Shown here in pieces: positions 23,286 through 28,732 of a stretch of DNA of 64,000 nt. The notes below the pieces were generated by a model. That model ran no database searches. It was not told where the DNA came from and saw only the letters and a program-made list of their open reading frames with translations. The first letter of the stretch is position 1. Each line of letters opens with the position of its first letter. Made by a program: the position numbers and the translations under genes. This DNA comes from Oscillospiraceae bacterium. GTDB lineage: Bacteria > Bacillota > Clostridia > Oscillospirales > QAMX01. The DNA lies in contig SVLQ01000002.1 of the NCBI GenBank assembly GCA_015067825.1, positions 186,001-250,000 on the forward strand, given 5' to 3'.

Positions 23286-25604
23286 TTGAACAAAAACCTG
23301 AACCCGACGCGAACGTTTCGCGTCACTCGCGCCGAAGCCGCCGAGATCCTTAGCAGGCAGAGCGGGGAATCGCGCAGACTGCGCGAAGAGGAAGAACGCA
23401 AACGCAGAGAAGAGGAAGAGAGAAAGCGCAGAGAGGAGGAAGAGCGCAAACGCAGAGCGGCGGAAGCGCAGGCGCGTGCGGCGAGGCTTTCGGAATCGCG
23501 GCCGCTTGCTCTGCCGAATACACTCAAAACCGCACAACCCGGCCCCCTTGCCGATCGCCGCACGGCCCAACCGCAGCCAAACCATCCAGCGCCGTCGCCG
23601 CGCGTGCAGTTGCCGCAGGTTCCGCGCGTCGATGGCAGCCGTATTCCAAGGCCAGACACCGCGCTGCCGGGGCTGCTGCGGAAACCGGATGACCTGTTCT
23701 CTATCGCCCAACAGGTCGGTTCCGAACTTTTCGCAGCCGAAAACGCAGGGCGAATTGCCGTGGCGAACGAGGTGAAAGCATTTACGAGCTCTTCGGAACT
23801 CGAAGCGTTTTTAAACGAACGTTTCCGCGATAATTATTCTGCCGATGCCGTGCATTTTCGCAGTCTTGGCGGCAAGATCGCCAATCAAACCGCAACACCT
23901 GCGGAGCAAAAAGAGTACGAACTGCTGCATTATCAGTATGCGTACGGGTTAGAGTCTTTGCAGACGCTGCGCGAAACCGAAGCAAAGCAGCAACTGCAGG
24001 ATCAAACCGCCCAATTTGCGGCAACGAGAGAGCTCGGCAACGTCGAAGTACGGGCGGAAACCGGACGGCAGGTTGATGAAAACCCGTTGAACGACGGCTT
24101 TTTCGCGCGCGCCGTATCGGGAACCTCCAGCCGCGTCCGCCACTATGCGACGGATGAAGAAAAACAGTTGATCGATCTGCACTACAACGCTTCTGTCGAA
24201 AACGGCGACGCCTATGTCGAGTGGCTCGATAAAAACTTCCTGAAAGAGCGCAGCCGAAAAGCCGTCGCAGAAGCCATTATCAAATTCACGGAGTACATAC
24301 CGCTCCTTGGGCCAGTTCCCACGCGTTATTTGGTTTCGGCAATTTCGTCGGTGGAGGCTCTCGTCTACGACATCTATAATTTGGGCGCCGGTGTTTTCGG
24401 CTACGATTCGGAGACAGGCTACCTTGAGGAAACGTACAGGCAAATGCTTGCGAATTCCGATAGTTGGCTGGACGAAAAGATTTTGCGATGGACGCACGAC
24501 TATACTGCCGACGTGACGCTGGCACTTGCCACGCTGGGTCACTCTCCTTATTTTTCTGCGGTTGTAGAAACACTGGGTGGTATGGGCAATGCGTGGCAGA
24601 CTGCGAAAAGCGCTGGCTACAGCGATGGCGAAGCCGGGGCGTACTCGTTAGCGATAGGCACGATGACGCTGGCGGTGGACGTGGCGCTTGACGCACCGAC
24701 GCCGAAGATCGAAGCCAATCTTCTCGACGCGGTTGATCTGATCAAAACAACACCTCGAGCGCAAAATGCGTTTCGGATTTTGGATGAGCTGATGGCAGAT
24801 TTCACAGGGTCGCAGCGCCAACGCTTCTATATCGACGCGTTTTCGCCGGTTCTTGCCGAGATCGCCCAGCACGGCCCCGACGCCCACCAGTTTTGGACGC
24901 CGGAGATCCTCGGCGAGTCGCTTCTGCAGCAGCTGGAGCAGCGAACGCTGCAGTTGGCGATCGAAGAAAAAGGTCTGCCGAGCGTACGGGCGGCGCTGAA
25001 CGGTACAAATGTGCTGCCGGGAGTTGACAAACTGCTTGGAAATGGTATAATAGAATCGAACAGTCGTTTTGTTTTGCACGACGGAACAATTCTGACGCTG
25101 GCAAACCTTATGCAAATGGAATCCCAACTTTTGCCGGTGGGTTGGGAAATGCAGCGAAATAATTACCCGATCCATATGATCACAGGTGTAGTCACCAAAA
25201 ACGGTATTTCCGGTGCGCATAACCAACAGGCGTTTGAGCAGACGATCATAGACTACGGCGGAACGCCGACAGAGTGCATTCTCAGTCGAAAAGAACACCC
25301 ATTTATGGCAGGAATTTACGAGATACAATACCAATTGCCCAAAAAAGGGAGCAACAAAGGCGTCTCGTGGATTATTCCCGGAGAATACCGGATTGTCGAT
25401 ACACCGAAGACGGTCTATGATCCCAAAATCTACACAGACGAAGAAATTTTACATTGGGGATTGGAAGCAATGTCGGAAGGAATTTCGGCGGGAAGAATAA
25501 ACGGAAGAAAAATTATTGGTTATGCGAGGAATGGTTTAATGTATTGGGGCTGGATCAGTAAAGAGACAGGAAAAATTACGAATTTCCACCCTGTTTTAGA
25601 GTAA
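23286..25604 (+). CDS. Polymorphic toxin with C-terminal EndoU RNase domain
   Basis: 772 residues from a TTG start behind AAAGAGGG. Layout: a Glu/Arg single-helix segment (about 33-70, three exact REEEERKR octads), a Pro-rich linker (about 80-130), a helical region (about 135-330), a hydrophobic segment (about 335-375), another helical region, then a bacterial EndoU-type domain (about 625-772). Likely catalytic residues are His645 (SGAHNQ), His671 (KEHPF) and Lys708 (PKTVYDP); the end ITNFHPVLE is also typical. EndoU toxins cleave tRNA or other RNA in rival cells. No signal peptide, LXG, WXG or Rhs feature is seen, so delivery is unknown. The immunity gene follows 19 nt later. Confidence 0.8.
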   Translation: MNKNLNPTRTFRVTRAEAAEILSRQSGESRRLREEEERKRREEEERKRREEEERKRRAAEAQARAARLSESRPLALPNTLKTAQPGPLADRRTAQPQPNHPAPSPRVQLPQVPRVDGSRIPRPDTALPGLLRKPDDLFSIAQQVGSELFAAENAGRIAVANEVKAFTSSSELEAFLNERFRDNYSADAVHFRSLGGKIANQTATPAEQKEYELLHYQYAYGLESLQTLRETEAKQQLQDQTAQFAATRELGNVEVRAETGRQVDENPLNDGFFARAVSGTSSRVRHYATDEEKQLIDLHYNASVENGDAYVEWLDKNFLKERSRKAVAEAIIKFTEYIPLLGPVPTRYLVSAISSVEALVYDIYNLGAGVFGYDSETGYLEETYRQMLANSDSWLDEKILRWTHDYTADVTLALATLGHSPYFSAVVETLGGMGNAWQTAKSAGYSDGEAGAYSLAIGTMTLAVDVALDAPTPKIEANLLDAVDLIKTTPRAQNAFRILDELMADFTGSQRQRFYIDAFSPVLAEIAQHGPDAHQFWTPEILGESLLQQLEQRTLQLAIEEKGLPSVRAALNGTNVLPGVDKLLGNGIIESNSRFVLHDGTILTLANLMQMESQLLPVGWEMQRNNYPIHMITGVVTKNGISGAHNQQAFEQTIIDYGGTPTECILSRKEHPFMAGIYEIQYQLPKKGSNKGVSWIIPGEYRIVDTPKTVYDPKIYTDEEILHWGLEAMSEGISAGRINGRKIIGYARNGLMYWGWISKETGKITNFHPVLE
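23382..23453 (+). repeat. Three 24-nt coding repeats (REEEERKR octads)
   Basis: Codons 33-56 of the toxin gene are three tandem octads of REEEERKR. The DNA copies differ at synonymous sites, so the amino acid pattern is under selection. The i to i+4 charge pairs predict a stiff single alpha helix. Confidence 0.85.
25024..25051 (+). promoter_or_regulatory. Promoter-like sequence inside the toxin gene
   Basis: TTGACA (25024-25029) and TATAAT (25046-25051) with a 16-nt spacer and TGG before the -10, placed within codons for VDKLLGNGII shortly upstream of the EndoU domain. The same 16-nt-spaced layout precedes both orphan cassettes. It could supply constitutive transcription of the immunity gene. 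Confidence 0.5.
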
Positions 25605-25623
25605 AAGGAGGATATTTTTTAGT

Positions 25624-26007
25624 ATGAAACGATACCGCTATAATGAAAATGAAGATGTCGAGTTGATGGTCTATCAATTTTTTGAGTCTGCTGTTGGTAG
25701 AAATCATTGGTTTCCGAGATTATTACCCAATGATAAGCGGATTGGTTGCGTTGGTGTGAGCGACTTTCAACGTTGCAGTTTCCCTGGATTTTATGACGAA
25801 GATGAACCGGAGTATTTTGGGAAAACAGGAGTGGCGCTCTTTATTGATTATCCGGCAGCGGATGCCGATTGCATGATCTTTCTGACCAACGAGGAGTATT
25901 TAACCGAAGTCGCGAAGTGGTCGAAAACATATCTGAAGAAAGCGCCCGAGGATGGCGAAATAGTTGCCGAACTTTTGGAAAAACTAAAAGAGAAATTTGG
26001 GCTCTGA
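25624..26007 (+). CDS. Immunity protein for the EndoU toxin
   Basis: A 127-residue acidic, soluble protein right after the toxin (19-nt gap, AAAGGAGGAT site). It ends EIVAELLEKLKEKFGL and contains EPEYFGKTGVALFIDYPAADADCMIFLTNEEY, both closely matched in the two downstream genes at 26339 and 27070. Size, charge, position and duplication behind EndoU fragments identify it as a CdiI-like antidote that should bind the EndoU domain. Base composition is clearly lower in GC than in the housekeeping genes, suggesting transfer. Confidence 0.8.
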   Translation: MKRYRYNENEDVELMVYQFFESAVGRNHWFPRLLPNDKRIGCVGVSDFQRCSFPGFYDEDEPEYFGKTGVALFIDYPAADADCMIFLTNEEYLTEVAKWSKTYLKKAPEDGEIVAELLEKLKEKFGL

Positions 26008-26022
26008 TCCGAGCCAGCGCAC

Positions 26023-26059
26023 AAACCCCGCCTGTTCCAAGCGGAACAGGCGGGGTTTT
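26023..26059 (+). terminator. Terminator 1 of the toxin-immunity array
   Basis: A 16-bp stem AAACCCCGCCTGTTCC / GGAACAGGCGGGGTTT with loop AAGC, ending in TTTT. The same stem recurs after both other immunity genes. Confidence 0.92.
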
Positions 26060-26071
26060 GTATGAAAAAAG

Positions 26072-26099
26072 TTGACGTCGGGGTGAGAAATGGTATAAT
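26072..26099 (+). promoter_or_regulatory. Cassette promoter for the second immunity gene
   Basis: TTGACG (26072-26077), 16 nt, TATAAT (26094-26099) with TGG just before the -10. It lies directly behind terminator 1, so the next immunity gene has its own promoter and a leader of about 230 nt made of the decayed EndoU fragment. Confidence 0.75.
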
Positions 26100-26101
26100 A
26101 A

Positions 26102-26326
26102 AGGTGTATTTTTGCCAAAGAACCGAAGACCGTCTACGATCCAAAGATCTATGCAGACGAAGAAATTCAGCATTGGGGCTGGGAAGCGATGGCAGAAGGG
26201 ATCTCAGCGGGGAGAATCAGTGGAAAATATATTGTAGGAAAGGCAAGAAACGGATTAGAGTTTGTGGGCCATATTGATATAACGAACAATATAATTACAA
26301 ATTTTTATCCGATAGTAAAAGAATAA
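26102..26326 (+). pseudogene. Orphan EndoU C-terminal fragment, cassette 2
   Basis: The frame opens after a TAA and reads EPKTVYDPKIYADEEIQHW and on to a final ITNFYPIVKE, matching the last 67 or so residues of the intact EndoU toxin. The catalytic lysine motif remains but the part with both catalytic histidines is missing, and no start codon or ribosome binding site is in frame at its head. It should be non-toxic and probably untranslated. It ends 12 nt before the second immunity gene. Confidence 0.85.
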
Positions 26327-26338
26327 AGGTGAACAAAA

Positions 26339-26737
26339 GTGGATAAAAAAAGAAGATATTTGGATTACAGAAAAGATGAAGCAACTGAACGGATGAATTC
26401 ATTGCGTTGGTTATGTATTAATTATATGCCGTCACGCTTTCTCCGGGGGTTACGTGAATTTGCGGAGGAAGGTAGTGGGATTGGATTGAGTGACTATGAA
26501 CGATTTTTATTTCCGTGTAACATTCTTCCGTGGGAACCGGAGTATTTTGGGAACCAAGGAGTACTTTTGCAATTGGACGACCCTATGGGAAAAGACGATT
26601 GCGCAATTCTTCTGACTAATAAAGAGTTTTACGAAGAGATCAGTCTGTGGTCGGAAGAATATGTGACCTTGCATCCCGAAGATGCCGAGGCTGTGACCGA
26701 ACTATTGGAGAAGCTGCGGGAAAGATTTGGACTGTAA
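26339..26737 (+). CDS. Orphan EndoU immunity protein, second copy
   Basis: A 132-residue acidic protein from a GTG start behind AAAGGTG. The end AVTELLEKLRERFGL and the centre EPEYFGNQGVLLQLDDP align with the first immunity protein, while the N-terminal half (KKRRYLDYRKDEATERM) is closer to the third. The frame is intact although its toxin fragment is broken, so immunity seems to be retained, perhaps against sister cells with a different EndoU variant. GC content is low compared with core genes. Confidence 0.78.
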   Translation: MDKKRRYLDYRKDEATERMNSLRWLCINYMPSRFLRGLREFAEEGSGIGLSDYERFLFPCNILPWEPEYFGNQGVLLQLDDPMGKDDCAILLTNKEFYEEISLWSEEYVTLHPEDAEAVTELLEKLRERFGL

Positions 26738-26752
26738 TCGCTGAAGAGTAAA

Positions 26753-26790
26753 AAAACCCCGCCTGTTCCAAACGGAACAGGCGGGGTTTT
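26753..26790 (+). terminator. Terminator 2 of the toxin-immunity array
   Basis: Same GC-rich stem as terminator 1, extended to AAAACCCCGCCTGTTCC / GGAACAGGCGGGGTTTT with loop AAAC, preceded by an A run and ending in TTTT. Confidence 0.92.
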
Positions 26791-26940
26791 GTATGAAAAA
26801 AAGTTGACGTCGGGGTGAGAAATGGTATAATAAAGGTGTATTTTTGCCAAAGAACCGAAGACCACCTACGATCCAAAACTCTACGCAGACGAAGAGATTC
26901 AGCATTGGGGCTGGGAAGCGATGGCAGAAGGGATCTCAGC
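26754..26940 (+). repeat. Cassette repeat, copy B
   Basis: Second copy of the terminator-promoter-EndoU block found at 26023-26208. The junction joining the promoter to the PKTxYDP codons is the same in both copies, so the deletion of the catalytic part came before, or was copied by, the duplication. Confidence 0.88.
26804..26831 (+). promoter_or_regulatory. Cassette promoter for the third immunity gene
   Basis: TTGACG (26804-26809), 16 nt, TATAAT (26826-26831), identical to the promoter of cassette 2, again immediately behind a terminator. Confidence 0.75.
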
Positions 26941-27058
26941 AGGACGAATATATGGTCGATGTATTATTGGCTATGCCTCGAATAACTTGAAATTTGTGGG
27001 CTATATTGACGCGAAAAGTGGGAAGATATCCAATTTCTATCCGACTTTGCAGGAATAA
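26834..27058 (+). pseudogene. Orphan EndoU C-terminal fragment, cassette 3
   Basis: Reads EPKTTYDPKLYADEEIQHW and on to ISNFYPTLQE, matching the C-terminal part of the intact EndoU domain and the cassette 2 fragment. Both catalytic histidines are absent and no start is in frame at its head. The C-terminal stretch differs between fragments (for example GKYIVGKARN versus GRCIIGYASN), so they came from distinct toxin variants or have since diverged. Confidence 0.85.
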
Positions 27059-27069
27059 GGGAGAGAGTG

Positions 27070-27471
27070 ATGGAAAGCAATAGAAAATATTTGGATTATG
27101 GAAAAGATTTGGCAGCAAGAGAGTTATTGGATCAAGTTTATTGGCTGTGCATTCATCACTTGGGACGTTGGTTTTTACATGCACTGCATGAACATGCAGA
27201 TGAAAACAGCGGTATTGGTTTTGGTGACTTTGAATGTTGTCTTTTTCCACGGAATGTTTTGCCGGAAGAACCGGAATACTTTGGTGATTCTGGTGTATTA
27301 TTTTTGTTTGATGCACCGGCAGCTGAAGAAGATTCTGCGATTTATTTAACTAACGAGGAGTTCTATTCCGAAATGTGCAAACAATCGGAAAAATATGTGG
27401 GCTTATACCCTGAGGATGCCGAAGAGGTCGCTGAGCTTTTGGAAAAACTGAAAGAGAAGTTTGGGCTCTGA
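27070..27471 (+). CDS. Orphan EndoU immunity protein, third copy
   Basis: A 133-residue acidic protein; the ATG at 27070 (a GTG at 27067 is possible) follows GGGAGAGAG, 11 nt after the orphan fragment. It shares RKYLDYGKD with copy 2 and ends EVAELLEKLKEKFGL like copy 1. Conserved centre: EPEYFGDSGVLFLFDAP. Intact frame and own promoter suggest it is expressed. Confidence 0.78.
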   Translation: MESNRKYLDYGKDLAARELLDQVYWLCIHHLGRWFLHALHEHADENSGIGFGDFECCLFPRNVLPEEPEYFGDSGVLFLFDAPAAEEDSAIYLTNEEFYSEMCKQSEKYVGLYPEDAEEVAELLEKLKEKFGL

Positions 27472-27486: not shown

Positions 27487-27523
27487 AAACCCCGCCTGTT
27501 CCAAACGGAACAGGCGGGGTTTT
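27487..27523 (+). terminator. Terminator 3, end of the toxin-immunity array
   Basis: Third copy of the AAACCCCGCCTGTTCC stem with loop AAAC. No promoter block follows; the convergent HTH gene ends 17 nt away, so this marks the right end of the array and may serve both strands. Confidence 0.9.
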
Positions 27524-27539
27524 ACCGTCGATATTGGAG

Positions 27540-28502
27540 TTAGCTGCGGAAAATGCGCCCGGCGGTGGCGTCGCCTTCGATCGTTTCGCAGGTGATATCG
27601 CCGCCGGCTTCGGCGTTGCCGCCGATCTCGTCGCAGTTGATATTGCCTTTTGCACAGGCGCTGCCGCCGACCGAATCGCAGACGACGTCGCCTTCGGCTG
27701 AAACGTTCCCGCCGACTGAATCGCAGCGGAGGCTGCCGTGGGAGACGAGGTCGCCTTCGATCACGTCGCAGCTGACGCTGCCGGTTGAGGTGACGTCGCC
27801 CTCAATGGTGTCGCAGTTGATGCGCCCGGAGGAAGTGACGTCGCCGTCGATGGAGTCGCAGGTGATGTCGGCGGCGACGACGTTACCGTCGATATCGTCG
27901 CAGGTGATACTGCCGCCGGCTGAAGCATCGCCGTCGATGTCGTCGCAAGTGATATTGCCGCCGGCTTCGGCGTTGCCGTCGACGTTTTCACAGGTGATGC
28001 TGCCGCCGGCGGTAACGCTGCCCAGCACGTTGCTGCAGGTGACGTCCTGCTCCGAGCGGAGGTCGCCGCGCACCGTCCCGTGGATCACGCAGCTGCCGAA
28101 GACCTCGACCTGAAGGGGATGGTCGGCGGCCAAGGATTTTTGCGCGGCCTCGAACTCCAATGCGATCGGCTGCTCTTGGCGCGGGCATTGCGACGCGATC
28201 GGTCGGTTGCCCAAAAACTGCACCACGCGCAGCACGCCGTCGTCGGCAAAATCCGCAACGGGTGCGCCGAGGATCGGGGCGGGTTCGTTCGGTGCGGTGC
28301 TGCCGAAAAACAGCGAGTCGATCGAAACGCCGAAAAAGGCTGCGATCTGCGGCAACATGAGGGTATCCGGCATGGCAGCACCGGTCTCCCATTTGGAGAC
28401 GGCCTGGGTCGAGATATCAAGCGCGTCGCCGAGCTCTTTTTGACTGAGCTCGCGGGACGTGCGCAGGGTACGAATCGTTTCGCCGATCGGATAGTCGTTC
28501 AT
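27540..28502 (-). CDS. HTH regulator fused to a cysteine-ladder repeat solenoid
   Basis: 320 residues. An XRE-type HTH (about 6-60, SQKELGDALDISTQAVSKWETG) and a linker (about 61-145) precede eleven-plus tandem 15-residue repeats (146-320) of the form GDxxxxGxIxCDxIe. A cysteine recurs at position 11 of almost every repeat, so a beta-solenoid would carry a line of about eleven cysteines on one face. There is no signal peptide, so these are cytoplasmic thiols. I do not know a function; metal or redox sensing, or a bactofilin-like polymer, are options. AGGAGAAC precedes the ATG. Confidence 0.82.
   Translation of the reverse strand: MNDYPIGETIRTLRTSRELSQKELGDALDISTQAVSKWETGAAMPDTLMLPQIAAFFGVSIDSLFFGSTAPNEPAPILGAPVADFADDGVLRVVQFLGNRPIASQCPRQEQPIALEFEAAQKSLAADHPLQVEVFGSCVIHGTVRGDLRSEQDVTCSNVLGSVTAGGSITCENVDGNAEAGGNITCDDIDGDASAGGSITCDDIDGNVVAADITCDSIDGDVTSSGRINCDTIEGDVTSTGSVSCDVIEGDLVSHGSLRCDSVGGNVSAEGDVVCDSVGGSACAKGNINCDEIGGNAEAGGDITCETIEGDATAGRIFRS
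27543..28067 (-). repeat. Tandem 45-nt coding repeats (15-residue Cys repeats)
   Basis: Codons 146 to the end of the HTH-solenoid gene are a run of about 11.7 units of 15 codons, one unit being a codon short. The protein pattern (Gly at 1, hydrophobic at 3 and 9, Cys at 11, Asp at 12) is kept while codons vary, arguing for an old, selected repeat. Confidence 0.9.
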
Positions 28503-28532
28503 CGTGTTTGTTCTCCTTTTTGTCGTACCTTG

Positions 28533-28574
28533 ATTGTAGCATAGAACCGTCCGAAAAACAAGCGAAGCTTGTTT
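28533..28574 (-). promoter_or_regulatory. Promoter of the HTH-solenoid gene with palindromic operator
   Basis: Minus-strand TTGTTT (28561-28556), 17 nt and TACAAT (28538-28533). The perfect inverted repeat AAACAAGC-GAA-GCTTGTTT (28556-28574) covers the -35, where an HTH protein could repress its own gene. Confidence 0.62.
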
Positions 28575-28732
28575 GAATCCGACACTTTCTTATCAACTAA
28601 TGGTTGATTGTTTGCTTTTGCGCCGAAAAACTTGGCAGAAAATTGGAGAGATATGGCAGGTTTTTATATACCAAATGAACGGCCTGTTGTAGTATAATGA
28701 ACGTGAGTTCAAGAGAAAGCGGGAGATCGTGT

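Follow-up and report, generated by a model that had tools for sequence, protein, structure and literature searches.

The bactofilin core comprises about 110 amino acids, with unstructured ends (PMC12448750), and in PSP-type systems a SHOCT-like domain is frequently, though not universally, found N-terminal to the Toastrack domain (PMC11237479). In Clostridium acetobutylicum, the Cap0037/Cap0036 pair consists of a self-regulated HTH regulator and, beside it, a protein with relatives among certain members of the bactofilin family (PMC5050335), while the fucoidan lyase FdlA harbors stacked cysteines inside a beta-helix, to which a stabilising role has been assigned (PMC9410043). The protein described here, encoded in an Oscillospiraceae genome within a window of 64,000 nucleotides (the whole stretch of DNA that was analysed), joins an HTH domain to a cysteine-rich beta-solenoid. 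No regulator of this design was found described in the literature searched, in agreement with the first-pass annotation, which knew of no characterised example. The gene and the domains of its product are located as follows:

27540–28502, minus strand: coding sequence, 320 amino acids with an ATG start; XRE HTH, linker domain and 15-residue Cys beta-solenoid
28302–28502, minus strand: HTH_3/XRE DNA-binding domain, residues 1–67, with recognition helix ...STQAVSKWE..., from Pfam and fold matches
28098–28247, minus strand: linker/N-cap domain 'DDGVLRVVQFLGNRP...', residues 86–135, from the member alignment and a linker-only search
27543–28097, minus strand: predicted right-handed beta-solenoid, residues 136–320, eleven 15-residue Cys coils, from repeat analysis and AlphaFold2

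Residues 10–63 match the Pfam HTH_3 profile at 48.9 bits (cut-off 23), the Foldseek matches of the domain are P22 c2 and other XRE repressors, and a PDB sequence search with the window protein returned HTH relatives only. The eleven repeats start at residue 154, follow the consensus I-x-C-[D/E]-x-[I/V]-x-G-[N/D]-[V/A]-x-[A/S]-x-G-x, and carry in-register cysteines at residues 156, 171, 186, 201, 215, 230, 245, 260, 275, 290 and 305, that is, with a spacing of 15 and once of 14; an additional cysteine, C283, lies off register. Nine Cys pairs are exactly 15 residues apart, as compared with at most five in 100,000 shuffles, and self-identity peaks at a lag of 15 (71 matches, versus about 4–24 for most other lags). 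The roughly eleven Cys repeats that the first-pass annotation had assigned to this HTH protein are thus borne out, in an open reading frame that is exact; we note that position 11 of its repeat is position 3 in the register used here. The 45/90 bp DNA repeats that underlie the array are only 75–81% alike, which argues against a recent duplication of DNA as the origin of the array. The opposite strand holds an open frame of 186 amino acids over the solenoid (27553–28113, plus strand), which probably arises incidentally from the GC-rich repeats.

Structure prediction, one of the checks proposed at first pass, gave a beta-solenoid: AlphaFold2, run with 18 family members, yielded a mean pLDDT of 86.6 overall and about 98 across the repeats, and the linker and solenoid modelled alone reached 93.0. 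Together with the HTH_3 match, this model bears out the proposed fusion, in which a DNA-binding domain is followed by a beta-solenoid and each coil contributes one Cys. Each modelled coil has a strand at positions 1–6 and another at positions 10–12. The best low-rmsd match of the model is the Marinomonas antifreeze protein 3p4g, a right-handed beta-helix (Z 16.9, 2.8 Å over 200 residues), and superposition on left-handed hexapeptide helices gave about 9 Å; the solenoid was therefore taken as right-handed. In Foldseek, HTH matches dominate for the full window protein, and E values below 0.001 were not reached with the solenoid alone. The structure matches listed include neither a Toastrack nor a bactofilin chain, an absence that does not speak for another fold.

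The window gene is solitary: on one side a CdiI_4 immunity gene converges with it, and on the other an AraC-type gene is transcribed divergently. The sequences that flank it are the following:

27490–27519, no strand: inverted repeat CCCCGCCTGTTCC-AAAC-GGAACAGGCGGGG, read from the sequence as a probable bidirectional terminator between the convergent genes
28513–28517, minus strand: ribosome binding site AGGAG, read from the sequence
28533–28561, minus strand: predicted promoter, -35 TTGTTT (28556–28561), 17 bp, extended -10 TACAAT (28533–28538)
28592–28608, no strand: candidate operator palindrome ATCAACTAATGGTTGAT (WTCAACYNNNRGTTGAW), from upstream-region comparison and motif scans

A further, stricter consensus scan reported neither the inverted repeat nor the predicted promoter. 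On the far side of the probable terminator lies a polymorphic-toxin locus (23286–27471), in which a 772-amino-acid protein with a C-terminal EndoU nuclease (PF14436) is followed by an expanded immunity array of three tandem CdiI_4 paralogues (25624–26007, 26339–26737 and 27067–27471).

The palindrome TCAAC-N5-GTTGA (or TCCAAC...GTTGGA) was found upstream of 35 of 40 HTH-solenoid genes, against a Markov-shuffle expectation of 0.07 on average and 2 at most in 200, although many of these loci are related, so that such counts are not independent. The copy at 28592–28608 is the sole one in the window, even allowing one mismatch; the 2.7 Mb host genome holds two exact sites, one of them at the window gene, and 13 of 18 related genomes carry one or two (0 for the reversed control). 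Taking predicted promoters throughout, the distance from palindrome centre to -10 is 51–54 in 23 of the 35 loci, 61–63 in six (62 in the window) and 73 in two, a helical-phase concentration (R=0.75) that none of 20,000 random draws attained. Placing the transcription start of these predicted promoters some 12 bp beyond the first base of the -10 puts the palindrome centre near -64, -74 or -85, in steps of about one helical turn. Class-I activators such as CRP have upstream, helically phased sites of this geometry. The spacing thus resembles class-I activation and makes it more likely that the protein activates its own gene, position alone being no proof of activation. Literature searches on the operator sequence returned nothing relevant.

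The second exact copy in the host genome (G000:C14:251432-251448; L136:4433-4449) lies 1.4 kb past the right end of the window. In a layout that matches that of the window gene, it precedes a TTTACA-17-TATAAT promoter, with the -10 at +55, and then genes for a DUF6199 lipoprotein and a small membrane protein, an operon that the window protein probably also regulates, judging from this site. The core CAAC-N5-GTTG also occurs upstream of six of 25 other XRE genes of the host (0.14 expected), with a predicted -10 at 51–54 or 63 for five of the six. An eye count places it at six of the eight XRE paralogues with QAVSKWE (L004, L006, L007, L148, L150 and L155) and at none of the rest. In a related genome, G291, the second copy is located just upstream of a gene that joins an XRE HTH of this type to a methyltransferase domain (L137:3776-4744, minus strand). 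An operator exclusive to solenoid proteins is thereby ruled out, since paralogues of this HTH class share its core; this points to a class of autoregulated XRE proteins that differ in their effector domains, the Cys solenoid being one such module, and suggests a general autoregulation layout. Further second copies at L138 (pyruvate kinase-like), L139 and L140 lie inside coding genes and were treated as chance.

We therefore favor, with a probability of about 0.6, an XRE protein that regulates, and probably activates, its own gene, with a bactofilin/Toastrack-like rod as scaffold or sensor domain and with structural cysteines. The fold, the register, the family-wide conservation and the operator motif were established computationally; from them we infer that the cysteines are buried, in which direction the gene is regulated and what the rod does. 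Two HTH domains together would bind TCAAC-N5-GTTGA at a constant helical face, about 64 to 75 bp ahead of the transcription start of their own gene, which the bound protein would regulate and more likely activate. The C-terminal half would form a right-handed solenoid of 15-residue coils, in which a Cys-x-x-Ile/Val corner generates a buried, structural Cys ladder, and the resulting rigid rod could serve as a scaffold for oligomerisation or partner binding, setting HTH activity.

Relatives were gathered with the whole protein, the solenoid (a query with three residue changes near its start and unaltered repeats), the linker alone, and a pattern search in named genomes. No relative emerged from a contig scan that used the window protein alone as query; the productive scan employed an alignment of four C-terminal halves. 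Of 295 genomes sampled from the order, 40 matched the linker profile, the host itself among them, as did only 3 non-self genomes of a phylum sample of 398. A search for the repeat profile had been suggested at first pass, and the relatives recovered here are indeed recurrent. Those with names include members of Oscillospiraceae and Lachnospiraceae, Ruminiclostridium bins, Herbinix, Anaerocolumna, Clostridium sp. KNHs205 and one Treponema bin. Judging from these matches, the HTH-Cys-solenoid design is not unique to the window and represents a recurrent, uncharacterised family. The head of most relatives is an HTH; in L141 it is a bactofilin-like segment with a SHOCT-like domain, and L011, L016, L032 and L035 carry a SHOCT-like PF22746 head. 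The linker/N-cap domain is common to HTH-headed and SHOCT-headed relatives. TCAAC-N5-GTTGA was absent from the nine SHOCT-headed relatives examined; one SHOCT-headed locus, L095, has the palindrome GCAAC-N5-GTTGC. The DDGKLR linker and the Cys solenoid also occur together with a FapA-like segment and a long coiled coil, in a 632-amino-acid protein (L056:168-2063).

The exchange of the HTH for a SHOCT-like domain in relatives (29.1 bits in L035, cut-off 27) would fit a Toastrack-type envelope-stress element, in which the rod would serve as a signalling platform beneath the membrane, coupled to transcription by the HTH. The lipoprotein gene behind the second operator of the host is in keeping with such a role, as are six loci (L044, L045, L046, L047, L053 and L061) in which the gene immediately upstream, in the same orientation, encodes a PF04018 undecaprenyl-phosphate translocase. 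However, these six loci are syntenic and their HTH-solenoid gene retains its own operator (in L044 the operator overlaps the end of the translocase gene), DUF4097 matches one of 18 members and not the window protein, and no PSP genes were seen nearby. We consider this explanation the less likely one. No partner gene is conserved across the order, the HTH-solenoid gene being mostly an orphan among relatives; linkages to PF04018 and to topoisomerase IV, each confined to a single group, were rejected as functional proof.

A bactofilin-like polymer, with solenoids stacked end-to-end and the HTH anchoring filaments to DNA, or filament mass controlling expression, is somewhat less likely still. In its favor, the bactofilin profile PF04519 scores 26.4 bits on the window protein, just below its gathering score of 27.9, with E<=0.01 in five of 18 members; the solenoid reaches nearly to the C-terminus without a cap domain, and a third, degenerate half-site-like sequence lies between palindrome and promoter in about 20 of the 35 loci. 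Nevertheless, wide coating of DNA is unlikely with one or two exact sites in each genome, and the linker and solenoid also occur under a SHOCT-like head without any HTH.

The structural role of the cysteines, as held in the preferred reading, depends on where they point. In the model, Cys lies two residues past the conserved core Ile/Val of position 1, within one strand (I1-x-C3-x-x-I6); it shares a side with Ile1 and therefore should face the core. A profile of 143 repeats, in which positions 1, 6, 8, 10 and 12 were restricted by the repeat-finding motif and the others were free, showed that free position 3 is Ala/Val/Ile/Leu/Met/Phe/Cys in 90% of cases and charged or amide in 3%, versus 44–71% charged or amide at free positions 2, 4, 5, 7, 9 and 11. 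Strand parity and this substitution pattern suggest that the Cys row is most likely buried inside the rod. The surface row of exposed thiols envisaged in the first-pass annotation, which had itself named a core location as evidence against that proposal, is thus not supported. Its other proviso concerned free replacement of Cys in homologues, and here the result is the reverse: position 3 is Cys in 123 of 143 repeats, a figure inflated by sampling with Cys-rich queries, and Val/Ile goes with a longer coil. Among all members, 249 of 255 Cys units have 15-residue coils and 13 of 14 Val/Ile units have 16-residue coils. Coils in which Val/Ile stands in for Cys are thus longer by one residue (16 against 15), and we read this as a rule of packing at a tight corner of the structure and not as a sign of ligand binding.

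The near-invariance of Cys does exceed what strict packing would need, since Ala and Ser are tolerated in 15-mers (7 and 6 cases), and this counts against a purely structural reading. Cys is kept far beyond other small residues (249 of 284 15-mer units), and the SHOCT-headed relatives L016 and L035 have a second Cys row at position 12, both of which would suit a metal or redox sensor whose thiol row binds soft metals or oxidises, changing the solenoid and DNA binding. We regard such a sensor as improbable: the cysteines are predicted to face the core, they are absent or moved in the HTH-fused L013, L012 and L094, where linker and solenoid are kept, the Val/Ile switch with coil length is a signature of packing, and the neighbours of relatives are not conserved and include no recurring metal or redox genes. 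That the buried ladder is itself functional, with a thiol column that loads soft metal or oxidises, stiffens or opens the rod and switches the HTH, appears similarly improbable.

The window protein represents an undescribed, recurrent clostridial family in which one Cys-ladder solenoid is combined with interchangeable heads (HTH, SHOCT-like, or bactofilin-like plus SHOCT-like). Its conserved operator, short and set at a constant helical phase ahead of the gene, offers a handle for direct tests of the regulon, of whether control is positive or negative, and of what the rod does; the pairing of Cys with 15-residue and Val with 16-residue coils could offer a simple design rule for narrow beta-solenoids.

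In its HTH fold, profile and short palindromic candidate operator, the window protein is similar to XRE/HTH_3 one-component regulators of the P22 c2, 434, SinR and RstR type. It differs from them in that its effector half is a Cys beta-solenoid, and in that its candidate operator is located upstream of the -35 in helical phase, and not on the promoter. Bactofilin (PF04519), to which the profile match is weak, is a cytoplasmic right-handed beta-helix of short coils, as the window protein is predicted to be, whereas the window protein has 15-residue Cys coils and an HTH fusion. Toastrack (DUF4097) has the right-handed beta-helix that is predicted here, and some relatives have its SHOCT-like head; the window protein, in contrast, has regular Cys repeats, and an HTH in place of the SHOCT-like domain. 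Cap0037/Cap0036 are two separate genes, and their likeness to the window protein is one of description. FdlA, an enzyme with five Cys and no HTH, resembles the window protein in the stacking of cysteines inside a beta-helix, a likeness that need not imply kinship.
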